From positions 1 to 52,775 of the IMG/VR virus record IMGVR_UViG_3300049733_000520: a stretch of 52,775 nt of DNA; one strand, 5' to 3'. The first letter of the stretch is position 1; each line of letters starts with the position of its first letter. Of the stretch, positions 3,618-16,269 are shown in pieces. A program made the translations under genes and the position numbers. The stretch comes from a virus. Below the pieces are notes generated by a model, which was not told the origin of the DNA, did not search any database, and was given only the letters and a program-made list of their open reading frames with translations.

Positions 3618-3707
3618 ATGAGCTGGATTGCGCCGAATTACCGGTTATGGTGGACTCGTGCGCGGTGCTCCTGTAGTTCTACGACGCCTCGTGCGCCTTG
3701 CTGCGCG

Positions 3708-4109
3708 CTACTGCGCCTTCGGCGGCAGGGTCCAGACCGCGGCGAACGCGCGCCCCTTGGACTTGGCGCCCAGGTTCTGCAGGCGCAGCCGTAGCGTCTT
3801 CGGCATCCACAGGCGCTGCGCCTTGAGCCGCGCCTTCAGGTCGCGCACGGTCTGCGGGCCTTCGAGCAGCGCCTCGCGCAGCGCCGCGTCCAGGCGATCG
3901 GAGTCGCGCACGATGGGCGTCCGCTTCGTCGGCTTCGTCGCCGTCGTCTGCCCGCGCATCCGCGTCGCGGCGCGCAGCTTCCCGTTGAAGCTCGCCTGCG
4001 CCCGCGCACCCTGGTCCTCCTCCAGCACCGCCGCCGCCAGCTCCAGGCCCTCGGCCTTCTTCCGGTACTCCGCCGCCTTCAGTCGCAGGCGTTCGCCCAT
4101 CGTCGTCAT
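3708..4109 (-). CDS. Hypothetical protein, coiled coil plus possible winged helix
   Basis: 133 aa. Residues 5-40 form an Ala/Glu/Lys-rich helix likely to coil. Residues about 70-125 (SDRLDAALREALLEGPQTV then DLKARL) look like a winged-helix-type segment similar to H-NS-like or Lsr2-like small phage DNA-binding proteins, but no signature is clear. The start has the CGACGACGACG leader common to minus-strand genes here. Nearest upstream gene ends at 4166. Function unknown. Confidence 0.6.
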   Translation of the reverse strand: MTTMGERLRLKAAEYRKKAEGLELAAAVLEEDQGARAQASFNGKLRAATRMRGQTTATKPTKRTPIVRDSDRLDAALREALLEGPQTVRDLKARLKAQRLWMPKTLRLRLQNLGAKSKGRAFAAVWTLPPKAQ

Positions 4110-4165
4110 CGTCGTCGTCCCTCCTCTCCTGGCCTCTCCTGTCTCAGTGTCTCAGTCTCAGTGTC

Positions 4166-4615
4166 TCAGGCTCGTCGCCGCCGACCTCTGGCGTCCTGGT
4201 CGCGCTCGCGCTCGCGCCGCAGCTGTCGCGCCTTGTAGGTGTCGAAGGTCACCAGCTCCGGCCGCCCGGCGCCGTTGACCTCGGCGTGCTTCTTCGCGTA
4301 GCTCTCCAGCGGCGAGGTGCCGCCGATGCCGCGCGCCTCGAACGCCGCGCCGAGCACCGCGATCGCCACCACCCCCAGGTGCGGCAGCGCCAGCTCCTGC
4401 GGCGAGACCTCCTCGTAGAGCTGTTTGAGGTTGCGGACCTTCAGGGCCTTGACGGCATGCGTGAGCAGCCGCGCCGCGTGGAAGTTGAAGCAGTCGACGT
4501 GGGCGAGATCGGCGCGGGTGAAGCGGTCGGAGCCGATCTCCAAGACCGGGAGCTTGGCCGCAGCCTGCAGCTCCCGAACGGTCGTGGTCCCGAGGATGGT
4601 TGTCGCCAGATTCAT
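4166..4615 (-). CDS. Hypothetical protein (149 aa)
   Basis: 149 aa with well-mixed composition, ending in an Arg-rich basic tail (residues 130-149) that could contact nucleic acid. No catalytic motif is evident. Its ATG overlaps the stop of the upstream gene by 4 nt (ATGA), so the two are coupled. A different-frame reading of the same DNA is Arg/Gly-rich shadow and was discarded. Confidence 0.65.
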   Translation of the reverse strand: MNLATTILGTTTVRELQAAAKLPVLEIGSDRFTRADLAHVDCFNFHAARLLTHAVKALKVRNLKQLYEEVSPQELALPHLGVVAIAVLGAAFEARGIGGTSPLESYAKKHAEVNGAGRPELVTFDTYKARQLRRERERDQDARGRRRRA

Positions 4616-5016
4616 GCTGTCTCCTCTTCAACGTCTACAGCCCCAGGCGGCGAGCCGGTGGGGTCGGGCTCCCCGGCGGCGCCCTTGAGTGCCCCCATCA
4701 CGCCCAGGACTCCGACGTGGGTAATGCGGTCGAAGAACAACCGCAGCGCATCACGCAGTTGATAGGCTTCCTCCGGTGTCTCACACTCCAACATCCAATG
4801 CACGGCCGGCCAGGAGCGGTACTGCCCGATGCGCTTGGCCGGCGAGGCGGACTCGTCGTCGGTCGCCGCGCGGCCACGCGGGCCGGCGCCCGGCGTGACC
4901 ATGCGCAGGATGGCGGGGTGAACACGAATACGGATCGGTTTCCCGGGCCGCTCGGCCCAGGCTTCGCGGATCGGTCGGTTCGGATCGGCGAGGTCGCGCA
5001 CAAAGGCGCTCTTCAT
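4612..5016 (-). CDS. Hypothetical protein (134 aa)
   Basis: 134 aa starting MKSAFVRDL. I prefer this ATG at 5016 over one eight codons upstream because GGAGGACACCCCT precedes it at proper spacing. The C-terminal third is acidic. No family recognised. It is the first gene of a minus-strand operon fed by the promoter candidate at 5073-5102. Confidence 0.6.
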   Translation of the reverse strand: MKSAFVRDLADPNRPIREAWAERPGKPIRIRVHPAILRMVTPGAGPRGRAATDDESASPAKRIGQYRSWPAVHWMLECETPEEAYQLRDALRLFFDRITHVGVLGVMGALKGAAGEPDPTGSPPGAVDVEEETA

Positions 5017-5072
5017 AGGGGTGTCCTCCTGGGCTCCCACTGCCCAACACTCGATCGGGCGTGCCGGCGTTC

Positions 5073-5102
5073 ACCCTATGCACAACGATGGCTAGTTGTC
5101 AA
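5073..5102 (-). promoter_or_regulatory. Sigma70-type promoter candidate (minus)
   Basis: Perfect TTGACA (5102-5097) followed after 18 nt by TAGGGT (5078-5073). It would start transcription roughly 50 nt before the ATG at 5016. Confidence 0.45.
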
Positions 5103-5173
5103 GCAGGCTCGGCAGGAGTCTCGGGCGGGGTCTAGTGGTCGAGTCGGTCGACGCTACTAGATGCGGGGGAGGC

Positions 5174-5203
5174 TTGATTTTGCCGGCAAAGTGGGTGTAG
5201 AAG
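5174..5203 (+). promoter_or_regulatory. Plus promoter candidate with operator palindrome in the spacer
   Basis: TTGATT (5174-5179) and TAGAAG (5198-5203) are 18 nt apart. The spacer carries a perfect 12-bp palindrome TTTGCCGGCAAA (5179-5190), sharing GATTTTGCCGGCA with 3565-3577. The position suits a repressor site controlling the helicase gene. Confidence 0.4.
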
Positions 5204-5399
5204 AGGCCGCTTCCGCTCGGTAACGGGGGGATGACGGCTGCCTGAACCCGGGCACCTGGAGGTGACCAATCCCCAGGTACCCGGTGCGTGACGACAACCA
5301 TCCGAACCCAAACGCGGAACAGACGACGACGACGACGATCACGACGACGGGTTGAGTTGGAGGCCCAGACTCGTCCTTCTGCAGATCGGAGTCGTCCCT

Positions 5400-6362
5400 A
5401 TGAGCAATACGACACTTGCGTCAGGTTGTCAACTCCCCACCCTCCTCGACCCCCTCCTCGATCCCCTCCCCGACATCATCCCGGCCGGTGGCATCTCCCT
5501 CCTGGCTGGTGCGCCTGGGGTCGGCAAGACGGCCCTGCTGGCCGCCCTGGCCCGGGACTTCCGCGACGGCCGGCCGATCTTCGGCCACCAGCCGACGGCG
5601 ATCCCGGCGATTGGCGTCGTCAATGCCGACCGCGGCTGGGCGCGCGGCGCCGGCTGCTGGTTTGCGCGGGTCGGGTTCCCCGACGTCCGCTACTACTCGA
5701 TGACCGACGATCCGACCTTCGACCCCCGCATCCTGCGGCGCAAGTTCGAACGGACGGCGCGGCTCTTCGAGTTCGTCGACCGCCTGCAGCTGCCGCCGGG
5801 CAGCCTCCTCTTCGTCGACCCCATCGCGCTCTTCCTGGGCGGGAACCTGCTGGACTACGATACCTGCGCGGTCGCCTGCCTGGAGATTCGGACGCTGCTG
5901 CGCCAGCGCGCCCTCACGCTGATCGCCGCCGTCCACGCCGGCAAGATCAAGGCGGCCAAGCAGGAGCGCTACCTGCGGCTGCAGGACCAGATCCTCGGCT
6001 CCACCGCGATCTTCGGCTTCAGTGACACCCAGCTCTATCTCGCCTCGCCCGAGGAGCTGAAGCGCTCCTACTACGGATTCCTCTGGCAGAGCCATCTGGT
6101 ACCCCCGGAGACGTTCGCCCTGGAGCGGGACGCCCACGGGTTGTTCCAGCTCTGGACCGGGGCCGACCGGGGGAACCAAGCCAAGGTGCTCGCCCTGTTC
6201 CCCGAGAACGGGGACGAGATCACCTTCGGGGCGCTGCTGGAGCTGGCCGAGGGCGTGCCCCTCTCGCGCAAGACGCTGCAGCGGACCCTGGAGGCCCTGG
6301 TCGAGAGCGAGCAGGTGGTCAAGGTCCGACACGGCGTCTACCGGCGTGTCGTCCGCCACTGA
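5400..6362 (+). CDS. RepA/RecA-type (AAA_25) replicative helicase-like ATPase
   Basis: 320 aa from the ATG at 5400, chosen because GGAG (5388-5391) sits 8 nt ahead; a start 16 codons upstream lacks this. Walker A GAPGVGKT at 37-44, Walker B LLFVDP with D140, then AAVHAGK and the QILGSTAIFGF segment typical of RepA-like hexameric ATPases (AAA_25). Residues about 265-320 look like a winged helix. Plasmid RepA and phage relatives unwind DNA at origins. It is the only plus-strand gene in the left block, flanked by palindromic and inverted-repeat DNA that could be an origin. Confidence 0.8.
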   Translation: MSNTTLASGCQLPTLLDPLLDPLPDIIPAGGISLLAGAPGVGKTALLAALARDFRDGRPIFGHQPTAIPAIGVVNADRGWARGAGCWFARVGFPDVRYYSMTDDPTFDPRILRRKFERTARLFEFVDRLQLPPGSLLFVDPIALFLGGNLLDYDTCAVACLEIRTLLRQRALTLIAAVHAGKIKAAKQERYLRLQDQILGSTAIFGFSDTQLYLASPEELKRSYYGFLWQSHLVPPETFALERDAHGLFQLWTGADRGNQAKVLALFPENGDEITFGALLELAEGVPLSRKTLQRTLEALVESEQVVKVRHGVYRRVVRH

Positions 6363-6655
6363 TCGCCCGGAGCCCCTACCGACTTCACCGACCGACTTTC
6401 GCCCCCCGCCTGGTACGTACGGGAGGGGGCGAAGAAACGGTGCCCCGTTGGGGGGTGGATCGGTGGCCTTTTGTGTTCCCGTAGTACATATAGTGTCCGA
6501 GAAAGGGTCAGCAGAATTGTAAGTGACCCTTTCAGCCGGTAGGGTCAGTAAAGGGCCAGGGGGGTCGAGCCTTTATAACCTCTTTCCGTTCTGTGGGTTA
6601 CTGGCGAAAAGGTCACCCTTCTCCCCCTCTGCCGGGCACCTTCTCTTCGCCTGGG
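6363..6655. other. Convergent intergenic region with inverted and direct repeats
   Basis: No gene. It has a GTACGTAC palindrome (6413-6420), an AT-rich patch around 6478-6495, a perfect 10-bp inverted repeat (6501-6533), a further GGGTCA copy at 6542-6547 and a related GGTCACC at about 6613. It lies just after the helicase gene, which makes an origin plausible; a bidirectional terminator is the alternative. Confidence 0.45.
6501..6533. repeat. Perfect inverted repeat GAAAGGGTCA / TGACCCTTTC
   Basis: Arms 6501-6510 and 6524-6533 are exactly complementary with a 13-nt loop. No T-tract follows on either strand, so it is not a standard intrinsic terminator. Confidence 0.7.
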
Positions 6656-7210
6656 CTAGATCTCCTCCGGTTTGGGCGGGACTTTCGCCTCCTCGCCCCA
6701 GGTCTGCGAGGCCATCCCATGCACCGGGCACTCGGGCACCGGCAGCCCGATGTCCGGGCAGCTGCAGGGCTGGTCGACCGCGAGGTTGACCGGCTCGCCC
6801 CCGGCTCGCCCCGCCGCGAGTTCCTTCTGCGCGAACCAGCCGCCGGCCGCCCGGCGGATCTCGGCCCACTGCCGCTTGCTCGGCAGGGTATCGGGCGGCG
6901 CCTTGGTGATCCGCCACATACCCCACTTCACCGGGTAGAGGACGAGCCCCGCAATGTAGGTGCGCTCGCAGTAGGGGCAGACCAGCCGCTGGCTGTAGGG
7001 ATTCCACTTCAGCTTCCAGATCGAGGCGGCCAGACGCGCCTCCTTGGCCTTGTCGCGGCGCTTGGACATGGAGTGCGCCATGTAGGGCGGAACGAGGCGG
7101 GCATCGCTGCTGGTGTGAATCATCCGCCCACAGGACGGACACTCGCATTCGAAGCGGTCGAGGCGAGCGAAGAACCGGGTCGAGGGGGGCATTGTCGGAA
7201 CGTGCGGCAT
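6656..7210 (-). CDS. Multi-zinc-knuckle protein of unknown function
   Basis: 184 aa starting MPHVPTM. AAGGAGG lies 11 nt before this ATG at 7210, favouring it over an ATG 13 codons upstream. Cysteine pairs CPSC (about 25-28), CPYC (about 78-81) and a C-terminal CSCPD...CPVHG cluster suggest two or three zinc sites. The middle is basic and aromatic. Phages encode many such small zinc proteins; the role is unknown. Its promoter region (7211-7411) carries CCAGTAG repeats. Confidence 0.65.
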   Translation of the reverse strand: MPHVPTMPPSTRFFARLDRFECECPSCGRMIHTSSDARLVPPYMAHSMSKRRDKAKEARLAASIWKLKWNPYSQRLVCPYCERTYIAGLVLYPVKWGMWRITKAPPDTLPSKRQWAEIRRAAGGWFAQKELAAGRAGGEPVNLAVDQPCSCPDIGLPVPECPVHGMASQTWGEEAKVPPKPEEI

Positions 7211-7411
7211 GGCGTGCAGAGCCTCCTTCGCGCGCCAGTGTAGCGCCACCTGCCGCCATCGCCACGGGCCTGGGGCACAACTTGCCTCGCAGTCGACCCA
7301 ATAAGCCAGTAGGAGCGGTAGACCCAGTAGACCAGTAGGTGCGCGTACGTACGCTCCTGGCCTGTAGAGCCAGTAGGCGTACGTACGGTACTCGCCGGTG
7401 GGCCGGTGGGG
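7211..7411. repeat. Intergenic CCAGTAG repeats with CGTACGTACG palindromes
   Basis: CCAGTAG occurs at 7307-7313, 7325-7331, 7333-7339 and 7371-7377, with a TCAGTAG at 7413. Between them lie GCGTACGTACGC (7344-7355) and CGTACGTACG (7379-7388), both palindromic. It is upstream of the zinc-knuckle gene. Confidence 0.6.
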
Positions 7412-7855
7412 TCAGTAGGCGCGGGGGCGGTAGCTGGTGGCGACGTCGAGGGTGCGGCGCAGGGATTGGTAGGCCGCGTCAGCTTGTTGGAGTACCAACC
7501 AGCGGCTGCGCGGCAGGGCCGCCTCGGCCGGCATGTGGGTGTCGAAGTGGGTGCAGCCGAAGGGCGCGACCGGGTGGATCGTGCAGCGGTCGGAGGCGTC
7601 GAGGAACACGCAGCGGCCGTGGCGGAGCTTGGGCGTGATGGTGCCGACACGGGCGGTCTGGCCCGTGCGGCTGTTGGCGATGAGGGCGCCCGGGCTGGCC
7701 CAGAACCTCGCCAGGACCGTACGCACGGGCTGAGCGAGGTAGGCGGCGATGCGTTCGACGTCGCCGGGGGCGCAGCTGCCGGGTTGGGAGTGACAACAGG
7801 CCACGCAGTCGGGGCAGGCGCAGCTCGGAGTGCGCTCGAAGGGAGGGGCGCTCAT
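7412..7855 (-). CDS. YkgJ-family cysteine-cluster protein
   Basis: 147 aa starting at 7855 (MSAPPFERT). The N-terminus carries the YkgJ pattern: C12, C14, C17, C20-C21 and C28, followed by a helix (DVERIAAYL) and a further cysteine region CVFLDASDRCTIH. YkgJ proteins are thought to bind zinc or an Fe-S cluster; their reaction is not established. The start overlaps the stop of the upstream membrane-protein gene by 4 nt. The ORF extends far upstream in frame but as Arg/Pro-rich shadow. Confidence 0.75.
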   Translation of the reverse strand: MSAPPFERTPSCACPDCVACCHSQPGSCAPGDVERIAAYLAQPVRTVLARFWASPGALIANSRTGQTARVGTITPKLRHGRCVFLDASDRCTIHPVAPFGCTHFDTHMPAEAALPRSRWLVLQQADAAYQSLRRTLDVATSYRPRAY

Positions 7856-8007
7856 AGCTGGCTCCACAGGATCCAGAGGTAGGTGGCGACGAGGAAGCCG
7901 GTGTGGATCGCCGTTGTCGTCTTGAGCGTGTGCAGCTCGCGCGAGAGCCGGCCTAGCTCGCGCTGGACGTCGCGCCACTCCTCGCGGTCGAAGGGCGGGG
8001 CGCTCAT
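7852..8007 (-). CDS. Small membrane protein, coiled coil plus C-terminal helix (51 aa)
   Basis: 51 aa (MSAPPFDREEW...). Residues 7-27 form a charged amphipathic helix and residues 30-49 a hydrophobic segment ending WILWSQL, likely C-tail anchored. The first six residues (MSAPPF) equal those of the next gene, so the translation starts are duplicated. Layout and C-terminal sequence resemble the 70-aa protein at 28234-28446. A lysis-accessory role is possible but unproven. Confidence 0.6.
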   Translation of the reverse strand: MSAPPFDREEWRDVQRELGRLSRELHTLKTTTAIHTGFLVATYLWILWSQL

Positions 8008-8348
8008 GCCCAGCCCCCGCAGCCGCAGCGGGCCTTGCGGCACCGGCCGGCGACGTGGAAGCGGCGCAGGTGGCCACAGGTGCGGCACTCCTGCAGATCG
8101 GCCGTGTCGAAGAGGCCCTGGGCGGCGCGGCGGAGGCCGGGGGTCGCCTCGGCGAGGGTGGCCGCGTCGTCGCGGGCGCCGGCTGCCGCCTCCTGCTGGT
8201 CGCGGGCGATGGAGCCCAGGACACGCAGCAGCGAGTCGGCCAGGGCCTGGACCTCGGGGAGGCCCAGGCTGAAGGTGCAGGAGTCCACGGTCAGGCGGAA
8301 GCGCCCGGGGACGCCCAGGACGCGCTCGATGCGGGGCGGGGTGCTCAT
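8004..8348 (-). CDS. Hypothetical protein with C-terminal zinc knuckles (114 aa)
   Basis: 114 aa. A helical N-terminal domain (residues 25-80) precedes a short cysteine-rich tail (CRTCGHLRRFH then CRKARCGCGG) that should chelate one zinc ion. Start and stop both overlap neighbours by 4 nt. Function unknown. Confidence 0.65.
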   Translation of the reverse strand: MSTPPRIERVLGVPGRFRLTVDSCTFSLGLPEVQALADSLLRVLGSIARDQQEAAAGARDDAATLAEATPGLRRAAQGLFDTADLQECRTCGHLRRFHVAGRCRKARCGCGGWA

Positions 8349-8566
8349 GGCGTGGCCTCGTCGTCTACGACGGTGTAGCCGTGGGCTTCGGCCCAGGCAC
8401 GAGCGTCGGCCAGGGCGGCCTGAGTGAAGCCGTAGGGCCGGATGCCGGTCGTGTGCAGCGGCGCGTGCCCCCTGGTGGTGACCACCTGCGCGCAGGTGCC
8501 GAAGCGCTGGCCGACCTCACAGATACACAGGCGCACCGTTCTCGTCTTGGTCGTCTTGGTCGTCAT
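8345..8566 (-). CDS. Hypothetical protein (73 aa)
   Basis: 73 aa with a GAGGAGCGAACG leader before the ATG. The C-terminal half (residues 45-70, AALADARAWAEAHGYTVVDD) has the helix-strand look of small alpha/beta proteins. Three cysteines near residues 14-25 could bind metal. ATGA overlaps join it to both neighbours. Confidence 0.6.
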   Translation of the reverse strand: MTTKTTKTRTVRLCICEVGQRFGTCAQVVTTRGHAPLHTTGIRPYGFTQAALADARAWAEAHGYTVVDDEATP

Positions 8567-8814
8567 CGTTCGCTCCTCTCGTCGTCAGTGTCGGCCGCAC
8601 GCGGGTTCAGCGCCGCCCAGGCGGCCACATCCTTGTGCCCCTGGGTGTCCCAGTCGGCCGGCCAGCGGAACGTCTCCCAGCTGCAGCGCCGGCCGTCGCG
8701 GTAGCGGAAGCTGCAGGCGAGGTAGTCCTCGCCCTTCCGCCCGTAGTGGAAGAGCACCGTGCGCCGGCTGCACGACGGGCAGCGCGTGTAGTCGCGCGCG
8801 GGGCGGCCGGTCAT
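8563..8814 (-). CDS. Zinc-ribbon protein (83 aa)
   Basis: 83 aa from MTGRPARDYT. CPSC at 12-15 and a later Cys pair (CSF and RRCSW) fit a rubredoxin-like or topoisomerase-type zinc ribbon. The ATG at 8814 overlaps the upstream stop (ATGA). The acidic C-terminus ends DDERSER. Function unknown. Confidence 0.65.
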   Translation of the reverse strand: MTGRPARDYTRCPSCSRRTVLFHYGRKGEDYLACSFRYRDGRRCSWETFRWPADWDTQGHKDVAAWAALNPRAADTDDERSER

Positions 8815-9236
8815 GGCTGCTCCTTCCGTACGATGCGGTAGCCGGCCTTGTGGGCCGCCCGCGCGAAGTCGCCCGCGCAGCGATGCGTGCAGAAGTGCGT
8901 CGAGCGTACGTGGTAGGTGCCCTCGAAGACGCGCCGCACCAGCTTGGTCCGGCTCGTCGTGCGGTCGTAGATCGATTCGACCGACGGCACCAGCGGCTTG
9001 TTGCAGAACGCGCAGCGGGGCCGCTCTGCGATGGGCGGCAGCCCCTCGATGGGCGGCCGCCGGTTGTGCGGGTCGGTGATGCGGCGCAGCTCGCTGCGCG
9101 GCAGCAGGACCTTGCGGTCGGGATCCCCATCGAGCTGGATCTCGGCTTGGTCCCGCCACAGGTCACACACGCGGCCGATGCTGCCGTCGGCCGTCTTGAC
9201 CCAGTGTCCGTAGCTCAGGGGCTTCGGTTGGCTCAT
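8811..9236 (-). CDS. Zinc-binding protein, N-terminal SH3-like segment (141 aa)
   Basis: 141 aa. Residues 8-50 (GHWVKTADGSIGRVCDLW...) read like a small beta barrel of the KOW/SH3 kind; residues 75-125 hold CAFC and a later C..HRC pair that together could bind zinc. First gene after a structured intergenic element (9237-9355). Role unknown. Confidence 0.65.
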   Translation of the reverse strand: MSQPKPLSYGHWVKTADGSIGRVCDLWRDQAEIQLDGDPDRKVLLPRSELRRITDPHNRRPPIEGLPPIAERPRCAFCNKPLVPSVESIYDRTTSRTKLVRRVFEGTYHVRSTHFCTHRCAGDFARAAHKAGYRIVRKEQP

Positions 9237-9355
9237 GGTCTGCTCCGTTCGTGGTCGTGGTCGTCGTGGGTCGTCGGTCGTTGGAGTCGCAAGCGCTCCA
9301 CAGCCGGCCCGCCCTGGGGCTCCAGGCGCGGGCCGGGTCGTGCAACGCTCCGGCC
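9237..9355 (-). promoter_or_regulatory. Structured intergenic leader, family copy 1
   Basis: Minus-strand order from the upstream stop: GAGCGTTGC (9350-9342), CGACCCGGC, a GC stem (GGCCCGC / GCGGGCC), GGAGCGCT (from 9299) closing with CTCC, then GACGAC-rich leader and the ATG at 9236. Two other copies are at 10201 and 10638. Confidence 0.6.
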
Positions 9356-9553
9356 CTACCGCCGTCGGCCGCGCAGGCGCCTCGCCAGGGCGGCGCGCTC
9401 GCGGGTGTCATGGTAGGCCTGCTCCTGGCACTCCGATCGCCCACACGTCACGCTGTAGCCCTTGGGGCGCGGTCTGAGGCAGTAGCGGCACAGGCCGTTC
9501 ACTTGGTGGCAGACGTCGGTCGAGGTCGGCCGGGTGTAGCCCCAGTCGTTCAC
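9356..9553 (-). CDS. Zinc-finger protein (65 aa), GTG start
   Basis: 65 aa beginning at GTG (9553), overlapping the upstream TGA as GTGA. Cysteines in CHQVNGLCRYC and VTCGRSEC form a probable C4 zinc site, followed by a basic C-terminus ending RRLRGRRR that could bind nucleic acid. The longer ATG frame upstream is shadow sequence of the neighbouring gene. Confidence 0.6.
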   Translation of the reverse strand: MNDWGYTRPTSTDVCHQVNGLCRYCLRPRPKGYSVTCGRSECQEQAYHDTRERAALARRLRGRRR

Positions 9554-10200
9554 GACTGCACCTCGGCCTCGGTCGCCTCGGGCTCGCCCGCCGGCAGCTC
9601 CAGGCGCGCGGCCGGCTTGGGCTGCGCCTCCTGCTGCCACTGCCAGATCCGCGTGTGGACCGCGTTGACCCCTGACCCGATGTCGTACCAATCCCACCGC
9701 GCCGAGTCGTACCTGCGCTCGCCCGGTTTGCGCTCGACCGCGATCCCGTCACAGTGGAGCGCCTCGGCCACCCGTCCGCAGTACTCCGCGAAGCTCCGGC
9801 AGTACCCGCGTTGGTTCTCGATGCGCGCCAGGGCCTTGTCGAGCGCCTCCAGCGTCCGCACCATGCGGCGCGCGGCCGCCAGGCCGATCGACGGCGTGTA
9901 GTCCTCGTACAGCGTGTGCCAGCCGTACACCGGGCCGCTCTCGCCGGCCTCGCTGCCGCGCAGCTGGCTGCGCTCGTCGCCCTGGCAGCTGACGCGGAGG
10001 CCGCTGAAGAGCGGGCCGTCCCCGTAGTGGTCGTCAATCCCGTAGGGCAGGTAGCCGTGCTGGTTCTCCTGGTCGAAGCGCTGGGTGGTGACTCTGCCCT
10101 TCAAGTGGAAGTAGCCGTACTCGCGGCTCTCGGTGATCACGAGGTAGCGCGGCTCGCGCGCCTCGTCGCTGCTGCTGATCCCTGGTCGTCGTCTCGCCAT
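9550..10200 (-). CDS. Hypothetical protein (216 aa)
   Basis: 216 aa starting MARRRPGISS, with GGAGGACGACC before the ATG at 10200. Composition is balanced, rich in Tyr and Trp in the first half (YGYFHLKGRV, GYLPYGIDD, WHTLYEDYT), with an acidic end. No family recognised. A 40-residue extension upstream is low-complexity and covers the structured leader, so I exclude it. Confidence 0.65.
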   Translation of the reverse strand: MARRRPGISSSDEAREPRYLVITESREYGYFHLKGRVTTQRFDQENQHGYLPYGIDDHYGDGPLFSGLRVSCQGDERSQLRGSEAGESGPVYGWHTLYEDYTPSIGLAAARRMVRTLEALDKALARIENQRGYCRSFAEYCGRVAEALHCDGIAVERKPGERRYDSARWDWYDIGSGVNAVHTRIWQWQQEAQPKPAARLELPAGEPEATEAEVQS

Positions 10201-10329
10201 GGTCGTCCTCCCTGGTCGTGGTGGTGGTGGTCGTCGTCGTTCGTGGTCGTCGTCGCCTGGAGCTGGAAAGCGCTCCGCGAGAGGCACCGGCCGTGGTCGA
10301 GGCCGGCGCCCTCCGCGCAATGCTCGCCC
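10201..10329 (-). promoter_or_regulatory. Structured intergenic leader, family copy 2
   Basis: Same order as the copy at 9237: GAGCATTGC (10325-10317), GCGC, a long GC stem with sequence different from copy 1, GGAGCGCT (from 10276) closing with GCTCC, then GACGAC-rich leader to the ATG at 10200. Confidence 0.6.
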
Positions 10330-10536
10330 CTACTGCCGGCGCGGCTCGCCGGCCGCCTGGATCGTGTCCCGGTCTGGGATGCGGGCCCTGGCGCCGTCGA
10401 CGCCGGCCCGGGCGCGCCCGATGTACTGCACCGCGAGGTGCGTGTGCGTGTGCTCGTCCACCTTCAGCAGCTGCCGGGCGGCCGCCTGGAGCTGGCGCGC
10501 CGCGTCGTGCAGCACCTTGACGTCGGCGGCCGTCAC
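10330..10536 (-). CDS. Small helical protein (68 aa), GTG start
   Basis: 68 aa from a GTG at 10536 that overlaps the TGA of the preceding 34-aa ORF (GTGA). Residues 5-30 form an Ala/Gln/Leu-rich amphipathic helix, then HTHTHL and an Arg/Asp-rich tail. No motif recognised. Confidence 0.5.
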   Translation of the reverse strand: MTAADVKVLHDAARQLQAAARQLLKVDEHTHTHLAVQYIGRARAGVDGARARIPDRDTIQAAGEPRRQ

Positions 10537-10637
10537 AGGGCACCGCCGTAGAGCTGCTGGAGCACACGCAGCGCGCCGGCCAGGGCCACCGCGCCCAGGG
10601 CCAGCGTGAGCCAGTCGATCAAGTGTCGGGTCGTCAT
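10533..10637 (-). CDS. Tiny single-pass membrane protein (34 aa)
   Basis: 34 aa: MTTRHLIDWL, then a hydrophobic stretch TLALGAVALAGAL and a short tail ending LYGGAL. GAGAGGACGACGACCCC precedes the ATG, and the stop overlaps the next start (GTGA). A real gene is supported by coupling and by following the third copy of the structured leader. Possibly a holin-like or membrane-regulatory peptide; function unknown. Confidence 0.5.
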   Translation of the reverse strand: MTTRHLIDWLTLALGAVALAGALRVLQQLYGGAL

Positions 10638-10730
10638 GGGGTCGTCGTCCTCTCGGTTCCAGGGAGCCTGAGCGCTCCGCCGCCGGCAGGGACGGCCGCC
10701 GCCCCTGCCGGGTCGCGCAATGCTCAGAGT
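10638..10730 (-). promoter_or_regulatory. Structured intergenic leader, family copy 3
   Basis: GAGCATTGC (10725-10717), GCGACCC, stem GGCAGGG / TCCCTGCC, GGAGCGCT (from 10678) closing with GGCTCC, then leader and the ATG at 10637. It occupies the whole gap from the upstream TAG stop. Confidence 0.6.
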
Positions 10731-11474
10731 CTAGAACGGGTCCGCGACCGCGATCGACGCCAGGGCCACCGCCGCCGGCCGGCGCCGCGCGGCCGCCACC
10801 GGCACCGCCACCGGGACGGGCACCGGCAGCCCGGCGCTGGGCGCCTGCGGGGCCGGCTTCGGCGTGCGGGGGACCTTGGACCCGCCCGACCCGCCGCTCG
10901 TCGTTCCTGGGGCCGCCTGCGCGGCCGGCGGGGCCTCCTGGGCCGGAGCGCTCGCCTGCGTCGCCTCGACATCCTTGGCCGCGTCGCGCCGGGCGGCCGC
11001 CAGGGCCCGGAGCAGTCGCTGCGTCTCGGCCAGCCGGCGCAGCGCGCCGTCACTGATGCCGGCGGCCGCCACCGCGTGGTTGACCGCGTCGGCGCCCGCG
11101 TCCAGGGCCTCATCCGGCAGCGTGAACGTGACGTCACTGGCGAGCACATACCGGAGCGCCCGGGTGCCGTAGGCCGTCCAGCCCTCGGACGGGTCGCGCG
11201 GCGCGAAGTGGGGCGTGATGGGGCGGCCGAGGCCGCCGGCCGGCTTCGGGGCCTGGACGGGCGCCGAGGCCTGGACGGCCACCGGGGCGGCCTGGACGGG
11301 CGCAGGCGCGGCGATCGGCGCGGGGGTCGGCTGCAGGGCCGGGCAGTCGGCCGCGTCCGCGTGGCGGGGCTTCTGGCCCTGCTGCCACTCGATCATGGTG
11401 CCGGCGGGGAACGCCCGGCGGCACGCCGAGCAGTAGCCTGGGAACCGGGCGGGAAGGGTGCGGGTCGTCGTCAT
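10731..11474 (-). CDS. Protein with N-terminal zinc finger and Pro/Ala-rich linkers (247 aa)
   Basis: 247 aa. Residues 9-45 (FPGYCSACRRAF, then H and DC) make a compact zinc-binding unit of the kind seen at the N-terminus of several actinophage-like proteins. A Pro/Ala/Val linker (50-80), a mixed globular part (80-165) and a second low-complexity tail follow. It may act as a DNA-binding protein; no enzyme motif is visible. GAGGAGACGACGACA precedes the ATG. Confidence 0.6.
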   Translation of the reverse strand: MTTTRTLPARFPGYCSACRRAFPAGTMIEWQQGQKPRHADAADCPALQPTPAPIAAPAPVQAAPVAVQASAPVQAPKPAGGLGRPITPHFAPRDPSEGWTAYGTRALRYVLASDVTFTLPDEALDAGADAVNHAVAAAGISDGALRRLAETQRLLRALAAARRDAAKDVEATQASAPAQEAPPAAQAAPGTTSGGSGGSKVPRTPKPAPQAPSAGLPVPVPVAVPVAAARRRPAAVALASIAVADPF

Positions 11475-11591
11475 TGTCGTCGTCTCCTCGCGTTTCGTAC
11501 GCCGGTGGTCGGCCGGCGCCTCGTCAGGCCTGTCGATTCAGGCGACGCGCGGCGAGCCAGGGGCGGGGGTGCCCCTGACCCGCCTGGGGCC

Positions 11592-12614
11592 TCAGGCGGC
11601 CACCAGCTGGCGCGCCAGGGTGAACGCCTGCGCCTTCAGCGTCGCGTTCCCGCCGAAGATCGCGCTCTCGTTCGCCCGGTCGCGCCCGGCCGCCGACTTG
11701 GCTTCCCCCGGCCGGACGTGGTCGAAGTACTCGACCACGGCGTTATAGGCCGCCCAGGCCGAGGCCTCGCCCGCGCGGACGTTCACCAGCTGATTCGCCA
11801 TGTCGGCGCCCTTGCCGGCAAAGGTGAGCTGCGCGACCGCGTCCCGGCGCGCCAGGATGACCGGGGCGATCGGCTTGCCGGCGGCCTCGGTGTTCGGGAT
11901 GGCGGCCTCGATGTACGCCGCCAGCTGCTTGGCGTTCATGGGGTGCTGCGCGAGCCGCGCGAAGGTGTCGCCGGTGGCCTTGAGCGCCTGGGTGAGCTTG
12001 GCCAGGATGGCGGCCGCGTCATCGAGCCGCTGGGAGGCCGAGGCCGTGTGCCGGATGGTGAACCACGCCTTGCCCTGGGCGGCGCCCACGGCCATGCCGA
12101 GGGTGTTCTGACAGACCACCCGGATCAACGTGCCCAACCCGATGATCCCGGTTGAGCCGTCGTGCGACCAGTGCAGGAGAAAGTAGCCGTTGACGTCGTC
12201 GCCGTCCACTGGCGTGATGCGCCCGACGCCGGCCGGCATCCGCAGCAGCATCCAGCACCGTTCCCCGTGGCCCAGGGCGCCCATCGCCGCCGGCCGGCAG
12301 CCCATGCCGAGCAGGGGGTCGAGGATGGCGCAGGCCTCGGCGTTCTGGACGGGGGTGTAGGTGCTGCCGACGACGCCGAGCTGCACCTGCCGGCCGCCCT
12401 CCTGGCGCACGGTGGCGCGGTGGTCGCGCACCTTGGTGCCGTCGGCGAAGTAGAGATCCACCAGCTGGACGAGGTAATCGAGGTTCCCCATCCGCAGGGC
12501 GTCGGCGACGGTCGAGACGTCGACGGTGATGCGGGTGCCGAGCTTGTGCCAGGGGGTCTGGCCCTGATACGCCATGGCGACCTGTCCGTTGATGACTGCG
12601 AGGTTGTGTGCCAT
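11592..12614 (-). CDS. DUF932 family protein
   Basis: 340 aa beginning MAHNLAVINGQVAMAYQGQTPWHKLG, the typical opening of DUF932 phage/plasmid proteins (TIGR03299). The middle (LGVVGSTYTPVQN, GRITPVDGDDVNGYFLLHWSHDGS, RVVCQNTL) also matches that family. Function is unknown; members are common in plasmids and phages and often sit near early genes. It is the first gene of the left minus block, with ACAGGAG before the ATG. Confidence 0.85.
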   Translation of the reverse strand: MAHNLAVINGQVAMAYQGQTPWHKLGTRITVDVSTVADALRMGNLDYLVQLVDLYFADGTKVRDHRATVRQEGGRQVQLGVVGSTYTPVQNAEACAILDPLLGMGCRPAAMGALGHGERCWMLLRMPAGVGRITPVDGDDVNGYFLLHWSHDGSTGIIGLGTLIRVVCQNTLGMAVGAAQGKAWFTIRHTASASQRLDDAAAILAKLTQALKATGDTFARLAQHPMNAKQLAAYIEAAIPNTEAAGKPIAPVILARRDAVAQLTFAGKGADMANQLVNVRAGEASAWAAYNAVVEYFDHVRPGEAKSAAGRDRANESAIFGGNATLKAQAFTLARQLVAA

Positions 12615-12750
12615 TGGTCTGCTCCTGTCGTCTGTCGTTCTGTCGGTTGCGTCTGGTGGCGCCGGGTCAGGGCGCCAGTGGGTGTCGTGTCGTCGAATTG
12701 AGAGTTTTTGGCTGCCGCCTCTGCCATACCCGTGCCAAAGTGAATGAGAC

Positions 12751-12770
12751 GCTATCAGGCGCTATCAGAC
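12751..12770. repeat. Tandem 10-bp repeat GCTATCAGRC x2
   Basis: Two adjacent copies lie between the DUF932 start and the TGACA inverted repeat, a layout typical of regulator sites. Confidence 0.55.
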
Positions 12771-13203
12771 GCCATGAACACGGTGACAGGTTGTCAGCGT
12801 GTCAAAACTACCGTGTAAGGCAGAGAAAAGTGTCCGTTTGCGCGACAGGCGGCGACTTCCCAGGCGGCCGCCGGCCTCGGACTCTGGTTAACATAACCGA
12901 GCTTATGCGACTCCAGGCCGCTAAGTCCTTTAGAATCAGTAGTTAGCGAGCCGAGCCCAGGCGAAAGTAGAGGCGAAGCGCGCCGGCAGCCCGGGGCGCC
13001 GGCCGTCCAGGCCTCCCGGCCGCCGGCAGCCTGGGGCGCGCTCGACGCCTGGGGGCCCGGGCGGGGCGGCGCGCCTGGGGCCTGGGGCGCGGCGCCTGGG
13101 GCGGCAGGGCGGCGCATTGTCCGCGAGGCCGGCGGCCGGCAGAGTGTCTTCGCCTGCGCCCGATCTCACCGATCTTCAAATTTTTTCGACCTTGAATTTT
13201 TCG

Positions 13204-13219
13204 CTAGCGGGGTCTAGAC
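13204..13219 (+). promoter_or_regulatory. GGGG-TCTAGAC element, copy 1
   Basis: CTAGCGGGGTCTAGAC ends 35 nt before the ATG at 13254. A TTGAAT (13192-13197) and TAGACA (13215-13220) 17 nt apart could also be a sigma70 promoter. Confidence 0.45.
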
Positions 13220-13253
13220 AGACGCCCACGCCCTCCCCCACCCTGGCGCGGTC

Positions 13254-13976
13254 ATGCTCGACCCCTCGCGCCAGCGCGGCGCGCTCGCCGAACTGCTCGT
13301 CGCCTACCGCTTTCTCGAATCCGGCCGCCTCGTCAGCTGGCCGCTCACGCCCTGCGCCTACGATCTGGTCGTCGATACCGGCGACCGCCTCGTGCGCGTC
13401 CAGGTCAAGCAGGCACACGAGCACCAAGGCGCCGATCGCCACTTCGGGCACTGGATCGCGCGGCTCACCAAGCGGCGCACCGGCGGGCGCGATCGGGCGC
13501 TGGCGGCCGCCGATGTCGACTACATCGCCGTCGTCTGCCGGCCGGAGGAGGTCTACGTCATTCCGGCGCCGGTCTGCACCTCGCAACAGGACGCACGCTG
13601 GATCAAGGCACGGCTGGTCATCGGGCCTGAGAGCCACTATCGCGTGTTCCTGAATCTCTTCTCGCTTGGCAACGGCAGCAGTGGCGAAGTCGCCGCGTCG
13701 CCGATCGCGCCCCTGCGCAAAGCCGGGCGCTGGGCGGCCGGACCACGTCGCGAGCGGGGGCAGCGCAAGCCGTATCGACGCCTCACCGAGGACCAGATTG
13801 CGCAAATTGTCCAGATGCCGGTGCGGTGGTACCGCCGACAACCGCCCGAGGGCCTGATCCCGCTGGAGGATCTGGCCCGGCAGTTCGACGTCTGCCCGGC
13901 GACCTTGCGCAATCTCGTCCTGCGCCGGTCTCGCCTCGACCTCCTGGCCAGGGACGCGAGCCCCGAATCGCCTTAG
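13254..13976 (+). CDS. PD-(D/E)XK endonuclease with C-terminal HTH
   Basis: 240 aa. E13 (GALAEL), D37 (YDLVVD) and Q50-V-K52 (VRVQVKQ) give the E...D...QxK layout of the PDDEXK_5 / archaeal-resolvase-like endonuclease family. Residues about 200-230 (PLEDLARQFDVCPATLRNLV) form a helix-turn-helix. First gene of the late-strand block and five genes before the terminases, so it may act in packaging-site recognition or be a homing-type nuclease; both are inference. The next element overlaps its stop codon. Confidence 0.7.
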   Translation: MLDPSRQRGALAELLVAYRFLESGRLVSWPLTPCAYDLVVDTGDRLVRVQVKQAHEHQGADRHFGHWIARLTKRRTGGRDRALAAADVDYIAVVCRPEEVYVIPAPVCTSQQDARWIKARLVIGPESHYRVFLNLFSLGNGSSGEVAASPIAPLRKAGRWAAGPRRERGQRKPYRRLTEDQIAQIVQMPVRWYRRQPPEGLIPLEDLARQFDVCPATLRNLVLRRSRLDLLARDASPESP

Positions 13977-13989
13977 GGGGATCTAGACA
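13971..13989 (+). promoter_or_regulatory. GGGGGATCTAGAC element, copy 2
   Basis: CTTAGGGGGATCTAGAC (13972-13988) overlaps the TAG stop of the nuclease gene and ends 33 nt before the ATG at 14021. Confidence 0.5.
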
Positions 13990-14002
13990 ACCTGCTACCG
14001 CC

Positions 14003-14386
14003 ATGCTTCGCTCAGCAGCGATGCGTCTGGCCAATCGCCTCGCTGGCGCGCTGCTCTTCCGCCGCCTCGCGCGCTCGCTCGACCGCCTCGCCGAGGCGAT
14101 CGAGGGGCAGCAGACGCTCCTCCTGCGTCTCGTAGACCATCTCGCACCCAACCCCGCCCCGCCCGAGCGCGACGTGCTGCGCGCCGACACCGGCCTCAGC
14201 TATCTCGACGACGAAGAAGCGGGCCAGGCGCTCGCCTTCATCGAGCGCACGCGCGCCGCCACCGGCCACACGCCCGACGACGAGGAGGTCATCATCCACC
14301 TCGCCGACGAGAAAACGCAGAACCTGGCCGAACGGCTCTCGGTGCGCGAGGCCGAACTGGCGCGCCTGGCGGAGTCGCGCCTGTGA
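14003..14386 (+). CDS. Hypothetical helical protein (127 or 121 aa)
   Basis: Reads MLRSAAMRLANRLAG. The second Met (14021) is an attractive start because the upstream GGGGGATCTAGAC element then stands 33 nt away, as at other copies. Residues 20-45 form a basic amphipathic helix; the C-terminal part (YLDDEEAGQALAFIERT) is acidic and helical. GTGA overlap with the next gene. No family recognised. Confidence 0.6.
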   Translation: MLRSAAMRLANRLAGALLFRRLARSLDRLAEAIEGQQTLLLRLVDHLAPNPAPPERDVLRADTGLSYLDDEEAGQALAFIERTRAATGHTPDDEEVIIHLADEKTQNLAERLSVREAELARLAESRL

Positions 14387-14682
14387 GCGTGCCCAAGCCG
14401 CCCCAGATCACCGCCTGGGAGCAGCTGCCGATCGTGCTCCTGGTGCCCGAACTCGCGCTGCTGCTGCGCCGCTCGCCCGGGACCATCCTGCGCGACTGCC
14501 GCCGCGGGACGATCGAGCCGAAGCCGTTCGCCGGTCGGCCCTGGCGCTGGAACCGCGACGGCGTGCGCGCGCATCTCGATCGCCTCCACCGCCTGGCCGA
14601 GGCGCGCGCGACGTCGCGCCCGCGGGTGAACGAGTCGGAGTCGCCCCTGGCGCCGCGCCTGGTGCTGGAGGCGCGTCGGTGA
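14383..14682 (+). CDS. Excisionase/MerR-like helix-turn-helix protein (99 aa)
   Basis: 99 aa from GTG. Residues 18-58 (LLVPELALLLRRSPGTILRD, then GTIEPKPFAGRPWRWNRDGV) match the HTH_17 / excisionase-type winged helix. Located just ahead of the terminase genes, it could be a DNA-binding packaging or regulatory factor. Both ends overlap neighbours by GTGA. Confidence 0.65.
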   Translation: MSVPKPPQITAWEQLPIVLLVPELALLLRRSPGTILRDCRRGTIEPKPFAGRPWRWNRDGVRAHLDRLHRLAEARATSRPRVNESESPLAPRLVLEARR

Positions 14683-14894
14683 GCGACGGGGCGCGTCTCG
14701 CGGTGAAGCGCCGTCGGCGTCCGCGGCGCCTCATCGTCGCCCCCCTGGCTGCTGACGCCTCCGAGCAGGCGCGCTTCCTGCGCGAGCAGCCGCCCGAAGA
14801 AGTGGTACGGCACAGCCCGCCGCCGCCGCGCACCGACTATGCGGCGCTCCAGCTCCTGGGGCACCGCCTCGTCACCCGCGATCGGCGGGAGTAG
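14679..14894 (+). CDS. Small basic protein (71 aa)
   Basis: 71 aa from GTG, with an Arg/Lys-rich segment (KRRRRPRRL) at residues 10-18 and an Ala/Glu-rich helix after it. Coupled to the upstream HTH gene by a GTGA overlap. Possible nucleic-acid binder; no family recognised. Confidence 0.5.
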   Translation: MSDGARLAVKRRRRPRRLIVAPLAADASEQARFLREQPPEEVVRHSPPPPRTDYAALQLLGHRLVTRDRRE

Positions 14895-14917
14895 AGGGTT
14901 TTCCGAAGAGGTCCGCT

Positions 14918-15844
14918 GTGGCGATTACCGTCAATCCCTCGCGCAAGCGCCGCTACAGCGGCCAGGCCGCGCTCATTCCCGCGGCGGTGACCGCCGGTCG
15001 GACCTCACCCAAGCGCCGGCAGCTCCTCGCCGAGGAGTCCGCCCTGCAGCACGCCGACGCGATCGCCTCTTTCGTCGATCGGCTCGGGGGCCGCGAGCGG
15101 CTCGCCGAGGCGCTGGCCATCGCCGAGACCGCCCCGGAGTGCGAAGCGCTCGTCCAGCACCTGCTCGACCCGCGCTTCCGCCTCTGGTCGCTCCCGAAGG
15201 TCTGCGCGCTGGCCGGCTTCACCGTCGCCGATCTCTTCCAGGCCTACCGCAAGGCGACGCTCCTGCGCGCGCACATCGAGGCGACGCACCGCATCGCCGC
15301 CAAGCTGGCCCCGATCGTCGAGGACGTGATGGCCCGGGCGCTGCCGCGCATGGAGACCTGCCTCCTCTGCAAGGGGAAGAAGACGCGCCTGCGCGTCGCG
15401 GCCGACGGCACTCGCACCCAGATCCGCTGTCCGCAGTGCCGCGGAGTGGGCGAGCGCCGCGTCGAGCCCAGCGCCGACCACCAGAAACTGGCGCTCGAAC
15501 TCGGCCAGCTCACCGCGCAGAAAGGCGGGGGCACCGGGGTGATCGTCAACCAGCAGAACATCACCGCAGGCGCCGCCGCCGCCCAGGCGAATGCGGCCTC
15601 GGCCGGCCCGCTCGAACAGCTCCAGCAGGCGGTCGGCCAGCTGCTCTTCTCGCCCGACCGCCAGCGCGCCTCCGCGACGGTCGACGCCGGGTCGGTGGTC
15701 GAGGCACAGACCGTTGAACCTCCAACGACCACCATCGGCGACCCGCCGCCCCCCGAGCCCACCGACCCGCCCGAGGAGCGCGAGCGCGACGAGCCCGACG
15801 ACGAGCCGGACGACCCGGTCGGCCCGCCGCGAGGAGACCACTGA
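14918..15844 (+). CDS. Probable terminase small subunit / DNA-binding protein with zinc site
   Basis: 308 aa from GTG. Residues 85-120 (LWSLPKVCALAGFTVADLFQ) form an HTH like those in small terminase subunits and LuxR-type proteins. A DnaJ-type zinc centre follows (CLLCKGKK near 148 and CPQCRGVG near 172). The Asn/Gln/Ala-rich centre (NQQNITAG) and acidic tail are common in phage small terminases. Its place two genes before TerL supports this role, though the zinc centre is unusual. Confidence 0.6.
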   Translation: MAITVNPSRKRRYSGQAALIPAAVTAGRTSPKRRQLLAEESALQHADAIASFVDRLGGRERLAEALAIAETAPECEALVQHLLDPRFRLWSLPKVCALAGFTVADLFQAYRKATLLRAHIEATHRIAAKLAPIVEDVMARALPRMETCLLCKGKKTRLRVAADGTRTQIRCPQCRGVGERRVEPSADHQKLALELGQLTAQKGGGTGVIVNQQNITAGAAAAQANAASAGPLEQLQQAVGQLLFSPDRQRASATVDAGSVVEAQTVEPPTTTIGDPPPPEPTDPPEERERDEPDDEPDDPVGPPRGDH

Positions 15845-16254
15845 TGGGCCAGCTGATGCCGATGCTCAACCTCGCCGGGGCCGCCCAGTCGCGCCAGCGG
15901 ATGCAGCCCGGGATGTCGCCCGGGATGCCGATGCGCCCGGGAATGCCCCCGATGCCGCAGCCGGCGATGCGCCCCTCGACCTCCCCGCCCGCGACGCAGA
16001 ACCAGCCGCAGCTCCAGCTGCACGACCAGCGCGTCCGCAATCCCGGCGAGCGCCTGCGCGGCCAGCTCAGTGGCGTCTTCGCGCCCTTCCGCGGCGGGCC
16101 GCCGCTGCCGCCCTCCAACCAGCTGCTGCAGCCGATGCAGCCCCAGGCGATGCAGCCGCAGCAGGGGCCGGCGATGCCCTCGATCACCGGCCCGGGCCAG
16201 CAGCAGGCGGCCTTCCCCTTCGGCGGCGAGGACTCCACGAAGTCCTTCTACTGA
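15844..16254 (+). CDS. Met/Pro/Gln-rich low-complexity protein (136 aa)
   Basis: 136 aa dominated by PGMPMRPGMPPMPQP-type repeats and a Gln-rich second half, ending KSFY. The ATG overlaps the stop of the small-terminase candidate (TGATG). Such disordered proteins occur beside head genes in other phages; role unknown. Confidence 0.6.
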   Translation: MGQLMPMLNLAGAAQSRQRMQPGMSPGMPMRPGMPPMPQPAMRPSTSPPATQNQPQLQLHDQRVRNPGERLRGQLSGVFAPFRGGPPLPPSNQLLQPMQPQAMQPQQGPAMPSITGPGQQQAAFPFGGEDSTKSFY

Positions 16255-16269
16255 GTTGAGGCCTCTGGC

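Follow-up and report, generated by a model that had tools for sequence, protein, structure and literature searches.

A candidate cis-acting RNA hairpin element before single cistrons of phage and integrative-element operons

In phage T7, intercistronic RNase III sites are hairpins that lie between the genes of an operon and occur several times per transcript. Translational attenuators and coupling switches have competing hairpins with one arm near a stop codon. The attC sites of integrons carry fixed core and inverse core sequences at their ends. The SAS and ESAS elements of the cluster K mycobacteriophages are present in many copies per phage and adjoin the translation starts of a subset of nonstructural genes (PMC3203893). 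SAS is a fixed 13-mer (GGGATAGGAGCCC), about half of the copies have imperfect inverted repeats upstream, the ESAS arms have a consensus sequence and the function is given as unknown (PMC3203893).

The element analyzed here was found in a window of 52,775 nucleotides, the whole stretch of viral DNA under study. In layout it comes nearest to SAS/ESAS, with multiple copies per phage by translation starts, but its arms are variable and covary, unlike the ESAS arms. Identity with SAS/ESAS was rejected, because the 13-bp repeat GGGATAGGAGCCC has no match in the window with up to two mismatches. Covariance model R1 of the element (see below) gave no match in phage TM4, where its first look passed no candidate. 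Like the T7 sites, the element consists of intergenic operon hairpins, several per transcript, but it has fixed GGAGC/GCUCC letters and a second, exclusive predicted fold. It shares competing hairpins and an arm near a stop codon with translational attenuators and differs from them in a ribosome-binding site without predicted change and in leader copies without an upstream gene. In contrast to the fixed ends of attC, the outer ends (P1 arms) differ widely between copies.

The families of Rfam 15 are the same kind of object, namely conserved structures in bacterial or phage mRNA. At the gathering score, no family matched the window and eight loci with copies yielded one tRNA only; the region of the three gaps gave no match up to E = 1. 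No title in the searched literature, which left most subscription papers outside, describes the element. The suggestion of the initial annotation that it may be new is therefore supported as far as Rfam 15 and the papers searched reach.

Three gaps in the window and the shared plan

Three gaps on the minus strand (9237-9355, 10201-10329 and 10638-10730) each span the distance from a stop codon to the next start on one plan, as the initial annotation had it, and a TAG stop precedes each of them (9356-9358, 10330-10332 and 10731-10733, minus strand). The sequence GAGCRTTGCRC, which it had named as common to the gaps, has exactly three matches in the window, all on the minus strand, and its reversed control has none. 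The pattern GGAGCGCT-N0-10-CTCC has four matches where 0.67 are expected; three are the gaps, and the fourth (6053-6068) is without the remaining architecture. Each gap RNA folds into one long hairpin (z of -3.7, -2.7 and -2.8 against dinucleotide shuffles), in which the 5' GAGC(R)UU arm pairs with a GCGCUY segment. A compensated change is seen inside the window, with CAC/GUG in copy E1 versus CGC/GCG in copies E2 and E3 (Table 1).

The GC stem and the GGAGCGCT...CTCC hairpin were earlier described as separate, but the GAGCRTTGC arm pairs with GGAGCGCTY, and folding predicts that stem and hairpin are either one long hairpin or two exclusive alternatives. The GACGAC leader is found in the gaps of this phage but is not part of the wider family, and the relatives widely keep only the TTGC of GAGCRTTGCRC, the rest covarying with its partner. 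R1 returned exactly E1, E2 and E3 from the window, all of which belonged to its training set, and the next match had an E-value of 0.8. Window positions 3688-17107 (13,420 bases) match a segment of IMGVR_UViG_3300045927_000329 (71,617 bases) without a difference; both records therefore probably represent one virus, the window being the shorter assembly. Elsewhere in the window, short repeats, CTACTGG/CTACTGGC and GTACGTACG, lie in an intergenic gap (7290-7400, minus strand).

Table 1. Element copies, their parts and the surrounding genes in the window
Feature	Position	Strand	Details
Copy E1	9283..9354	minus	fold, sequence, covariance model E 9.1e-7
E1, P1 5' arm	9354-9346	minus
E1, TTGC	9345-9342	minus
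E1, P2 region	9341-9300	minus
E1, GGAGC	9299-9295	minus	followed by the P1 partner
E1, CTCC	9286-9283	minus	follows the P1 partner
Copy E2	10259..10329	minus	fold, sequence, covariance model E 3.5e-9
E2, P1 5' arm	10329-10321	minus
E2, TTGC	10320-10317	minus
E2, P2 region	10316-10277	minus
E2, GGAGC to GCTCC	10276-10259	minus
Copy E3	10663..10729	minus	fold, sequence, covariance model E 1.6e-6
E3, P1 5' arm	10729-10721	minus
E3, TTGC	10720-10717	minus
E3, P2 region	10716-10679	minus
E3, GGAGC to GCTCC	10678-10663	minus
Spacer, E1 to next start	9237..9282	minus	GACGAC/CACGAC-rich leader; ribosome-binding motif GGAG 6 nt before start
Spacer, E2 to next start	10201..10258	minus	GACGAC/CCACCACC-rich leader with GGAGG motif
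Spacer, E3 to next start	10638..10662	minus	AGGA motif, from sequence
ORF downstream of E1	8811..9236	minus	141 aa; without clear family
ORF downstream of E2	9550..10200	minus	216 aa; no family match found
Small ORF downstream of E3	10533..10637	minus	34 aa
ORF upstream of E3	10731..11474	minus	247 aa; PHROG phrog_1581, E 1.2e-6
DUF932 gene upstream of cluster	11592..12614	minus	Pfam PF06067, E 1.2e-41

The plan shared by all copies consists of a P1 arm adjoining the upstream stop codon, UUGC, a variable stem (P2), GGAGC, the P1 partner and (G)CUCC. The P1 arm, which adjoins or contains the stop codon, finds its partner in the loop of GGAGC-N-GCTCC; its pairings in relatives include CGGGAU/AUCCCG, CUGAC/GUCAG, GCGGUC/GACCGC and CCUGAU/AUCAGG. 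By pattern scans of IMG/VR and R1, 67 copies were found in 27 virus records at E <= 0.001, with one to six copies per record, on a single strand within each record and mostly within a few kilobases. Several of the 27 records are related, and copies in related records are not independent.

The IMG/VR scan with the exact motif of the initial annotation returned 23 stretches, of which folding shows the architecture only in the window's own virus (L022) and in L020; in the second copy of L020, the outer arm differs yet pairs (GGUUGC/GCAAUU). Addition of the CTCC end led to L030 and L031, freeing of the first arm led to L036 and L046, and two broader scans and a custom scanner that required a P1 score gave many more copies. 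Since the scan patterns prescribed TTGC, GGAGC and CTCC, part of the constancy of these segments comes from selection. R1 was built on an alignment of 30 copies (A2) and run on the window, 75 loci and 27 whole records. Before the sequences of A2 were chosen, seven matches scoring >= 31 were removed by hand, and 30 of the copies known at that point were aligned. L045 was considered and left out of the counts, L020b, whose shifted P1 the scanner missed, was added by hand, and L036c (around 8036-8052 of L036), found by eye, is in none of the counts. A set of 64 copies was used for positional and folding statistics; it comprises 66 rows of >= 34.5 bits minus five duplicates (three of L114, one of L115 and one of L150) plus the three window copies, and 12 weaker rows lie outside its counts.

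The genes of the records suggest that part of them are actinobacterial. A genome scan with P1 fixed as GAGC, a pattern blind to any other P1, returned 14 stretches, none with the architecture. With a freer pattern, 27 of 296 genomes from the class of a Streptomyces had a match, no returned locus showed the architecture in a gene-gap context, and the reversed control pattern matched at least as often. R1 gave no match in 197 genomes of the Streptomyces order, but this run scored no more than 25 first-look candidates out of many thousands per genome and carries no weight. It gave none in 15 further sequences either, namely twelve named phages (TM4 and eleven picked for a DUF932 relative) and three L136-like plasmids. 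The stretches of L046, L030, L136 and L143 have no DNA similarity in INPHARED, and that of L089 matches only phage Kozie (two records).

Two further features were observed in these records. In L046, the minus-strand gaps near 3225-3190, 1875-1835, 1700-1665, 1240-1205 and 930-900 carry a second, simple hairpin type (GCGTCCCGYC...GRCGGGACGC) without GGAGC/GCTCC. In L036, about 400 bases without an obvious gene (7620-8060) precede a variant copy (GGAGTGCTTCCACTCC); the stretch could be a non-coding RNA, and a search against Rfam up to E = 1 gave only a sub-threshold chance match.

Covarying stems and a constant small hairpin

In A2, 81.7% of the cells of the long hairpin are paired, compared with 69.6% in shuffles, and 46 cells are changed on both sides, compared with 21.9 +- 3.8 in shuffles (reached by 0 of 500). 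The covariation score is 0.298 versus 0.135 for the shuffled alignments (again 0 of 500) and falls to 0.07-0.12 when the partners are slid by one to three columns. Measures that count pairs and pair types are less extreme and were reached by 52 and 47 of 500 shuffles. RNAalifold predicts only the GGAGC:GCUCC hairpin from A2, and this hairpin lends no covariation support of its own because it is nearly invariant.

A test free of P1 selection used 152 distinct pattern matches, 30 of which have a stop and a start rightly placed; two of these 30 rows are second registers of counted copies (L046 and L179). P2, tested as hairpin presence and on its first pairs, forms a single hairpin in 30/30 of the in-context matches versus 54/122 of the others. 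Complementarity of the P1 arms reaches 12.0 with their own loops, compared with 9.02 +- 0.67 when loops of other copies are assigned to them (best value among 500 shuffles, 11.25). GC-rich inverted repeats that arose by chance and have no function might explain why only L022 and L020 folded into the architecture among the exact-motif stretches, but the E-values of R1, the covariation and the P2 contrast make this explanation practically negligible. The proposal that stem changes with kept pairing reflect selected RNA structure is supported by the double changes and by a covariation above all shuffles and slid controls. The 30 copies covary and are not recent identical duplications, and the element is very probably a selected cis-acting RNA. 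The suggestion of the initial annotation that it may be a cis-regulatory RNA or a processing site is likewise supported, the results being compatible with either.

Compared with dinucleotide shuffles, all 64 copies have a folding z below -2. In 63 of them the sense strand forms a more stable structure than the antisense strand, which argues that the element works as an RNA of the coding strand, although part of this bias may come from the scan patterns, whose orientation was fixed. An element acting as DNA, such as an attC-like recombination site or a repressor site, would fit the position at gene boundaries and a pair of records (L166 and L177) in which the same 5' half stands before different 3' halves and genes. 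This strand difference and the freedom of the P1 and P2 letters to covary, which no DNA-binding core would allow, render it highly improbable.

P1 and P2 covary, and GGAGC/GCUCC are constant. The small hairpin was given other letters in two control scans. The natural GGAGC/GCTCC pattern gave 83 distinct matches with 18 full members (gene-gap context, P1 and P2), the compensated GGGGC/GCCCC control gave 72 with no member, and the broken GGAGC/GCCCC control gave 55 with one doubtful case (L449). R1 found nothing at E 0.01 in 97 loci of the control scans. GGAGC and GCUCC are therefore kept as letters and not only as pairing. Variants outside the scan patterns were recognized by the model or by eye and comprise CUGC, GUGC or AUGC in place of UUGC (L136 6265, L278 10911, L260 6897 and L248 11041), GCUCU ends (L205 8757 and L260 5127) and one compensated GGAGU/ACUCC (L036). 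The doubtful locus, on the minus strand of L449 between a stop and a start, has an 8-bp P1 and GGAGC, with GCCCC for GCTCC; its P2 is poor, R1 gives no match there, and it is possibly a variant of the element.

Gene context of the copies

Copies lie between a stop codon and the ribosome-binding site of the next gene or in the 5' leader of an operon. Upstream of 52 of the 64 copies there is an ORF of at least 40 codons. In 46 of these 52 cases the distance from its stop to TTGC is 0-10 nt, and in 35 of the 52 the stop overlaps the P1 arm; for E3, the TAG of the upstream ORF is 10 nt before TTGC. A start with a Shine-Dalgarno-like motif follows in 59/64 copies at a median distance of 24 nt. For seven copies, most of which open their cluster, no clear ORF is seen upstream, and the preceding stretch looks non-coding; the element is therefore associated with the cistron that follows it. 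Ahead of the first copy in L136, L191 and L227, the non-coding sequence carries repeated TTAACCC motifs and is perhaps involved in control or replication.

HU-like genes lie downstream of many copies, and the L136 stretch resembles genes of actinomycete plasmids. The DUF932 gene of the window lies two genes upstream of the gene downstream of E3; in records G004 and G323, element copies flank a DUF932 gene. For the ORF downstream of E1, the PHROG match is weak (E 0.0014) and contains no stretch that passes. An all-against-all ORF comparison of the stretches, which are partial for many records, revealed groups of related records and no trans-acting gene common to the compared stretches. In this comparison, proteins in common with the window occur only in G004, G322 and G323, and the ORF with the widest distribution reaches nine other records. 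L166 (632-692) and L177 (2456-2517) have the same upstream gene end and element 5' half, followed by a different 3' half and downstream gene, with P1 pairing kept in another register; going by these sequences, genes seem to have been exchanged at the elements.

A strong GC-rich hairpin after a stop codon would also be expected of a transcription attenuator or an intrinsic terminator. No U-tract follows CTCC (mean of 0.83 and at most three T within 10 nt), no terminator-like site is present in the window from 8300 to 13200, and the leader copies precede genes, so termination is a very improbable function. Readthrough of the stop codon was rejected; all three gaps of the window begin with TAG, and in two of them the frame continues into the following gene, but TGA and TAA also serve as stops in relatives.

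The stop positions 0-10 nt before TTGC or over P1 would suit a translation-coupling switch. There, P1 would be covered by the ribosome that terminates upstream, which would allow the GGAGC:GCUCC hairpin to form and a ribosome-binding site held by CUCC to be released. Blocking of P1 was modeled by folding for 53 copies, the other 11 of 64 being without a usable stop or start. Upon blocking, the probability of the small hairpin exceeds 0.5 in 38 of the 53 copies, up from nine. The predicted accessibility of the Shine-Dalgarno motif, however, is unchanged (mean 0.49 to 0.50), rising by more than 0.2 in five copies and falling by more than 0.2 in six. CTCC pairs appreciably with the next Shine-Dalgarno motif in about six of the first 15 copies, and the leader copies without an upstream ORF retain P1. 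Such a switch is distinctly unlikely, and ribosome-gated release of the Shine-Dalgarno motif was rejected as a general mechanism given the unchanged accessibility and the leader copies without a stop codon.

Two predicted folds and a proposed role

Two mutually exclusive folds are predicted for the element. The long hairpin combines P1:P1', GUUGC/GGAGC and P2, and the alternative combines P2 with the small GGAGC:GCUCC hairpin; the RNA is likely to have two states, as far as these folding models go. A pseudoknot between P1 and the GGAGC:GCUCC hairpin was rejected on geometric grounds, as no linker nucleotides would be left.

In operons of phages and mobile elements, the element would mark single cistrons at their 5' side and control them post-transcriptionally. 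Something presumably reads GGAGC and GCUCC, since their conservation extends to the letters and is not limited to pairing. The likeliest readers would be a host RNA-binding protein or host endonuclease, or the ribosome; GGAG and CUCC are the letters of the Shine-Dalgarno and anti-Shine-Dalgarno sequences. The likeliest outcome would be processing or stabilization of the mRNA that gives each downstream cistron its own protected, translatable 5' end, and the alternative fold would set whether the site is open. That GGAGC, UUGC and GCUCC form such a factor-read element for the processing or stability of single-cistron mRNAs is tentatively favored here and may quite plausibly be correct.

A site of the RNase III type, at which the long hairpin is cut to set the ends of single-cistron mRNAs, overlaps with this proposal. 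The long, nearly continuous helix with its conserved G.G-containing interruption and the intercistronic or leader position with several copies per operon are consistent with it; the letters GGAGC/GCUCC are fixed here, and RNase III sites are not known to need them, which leaves this variant unlikely. A further role, possible though less probable than the favored one, is that of a bistable module common to largely unrelated phages and integrative elements, which would couple the expression of a cistron to an event on its 5' side by strand exchange. GUUGC of the 5' arm would then be a weakened copy of GCUCC, both would compete for GGAGC, and the trigger might be the arrival of a terminating ribosome or the binding of an unknown factor to GGAG/CUCC.

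Small genes without known function are numerous in the operons of phages and integrative elements, and little is understood of how the dose of each is set. The element sits before single cistrons of such operons, including the first. The records in which it occurs have few detectable proteins in common within the compared stretches, which suggests that it uses a host function. The covariance model provides a handle for finding such operons and the factor that reads the element.
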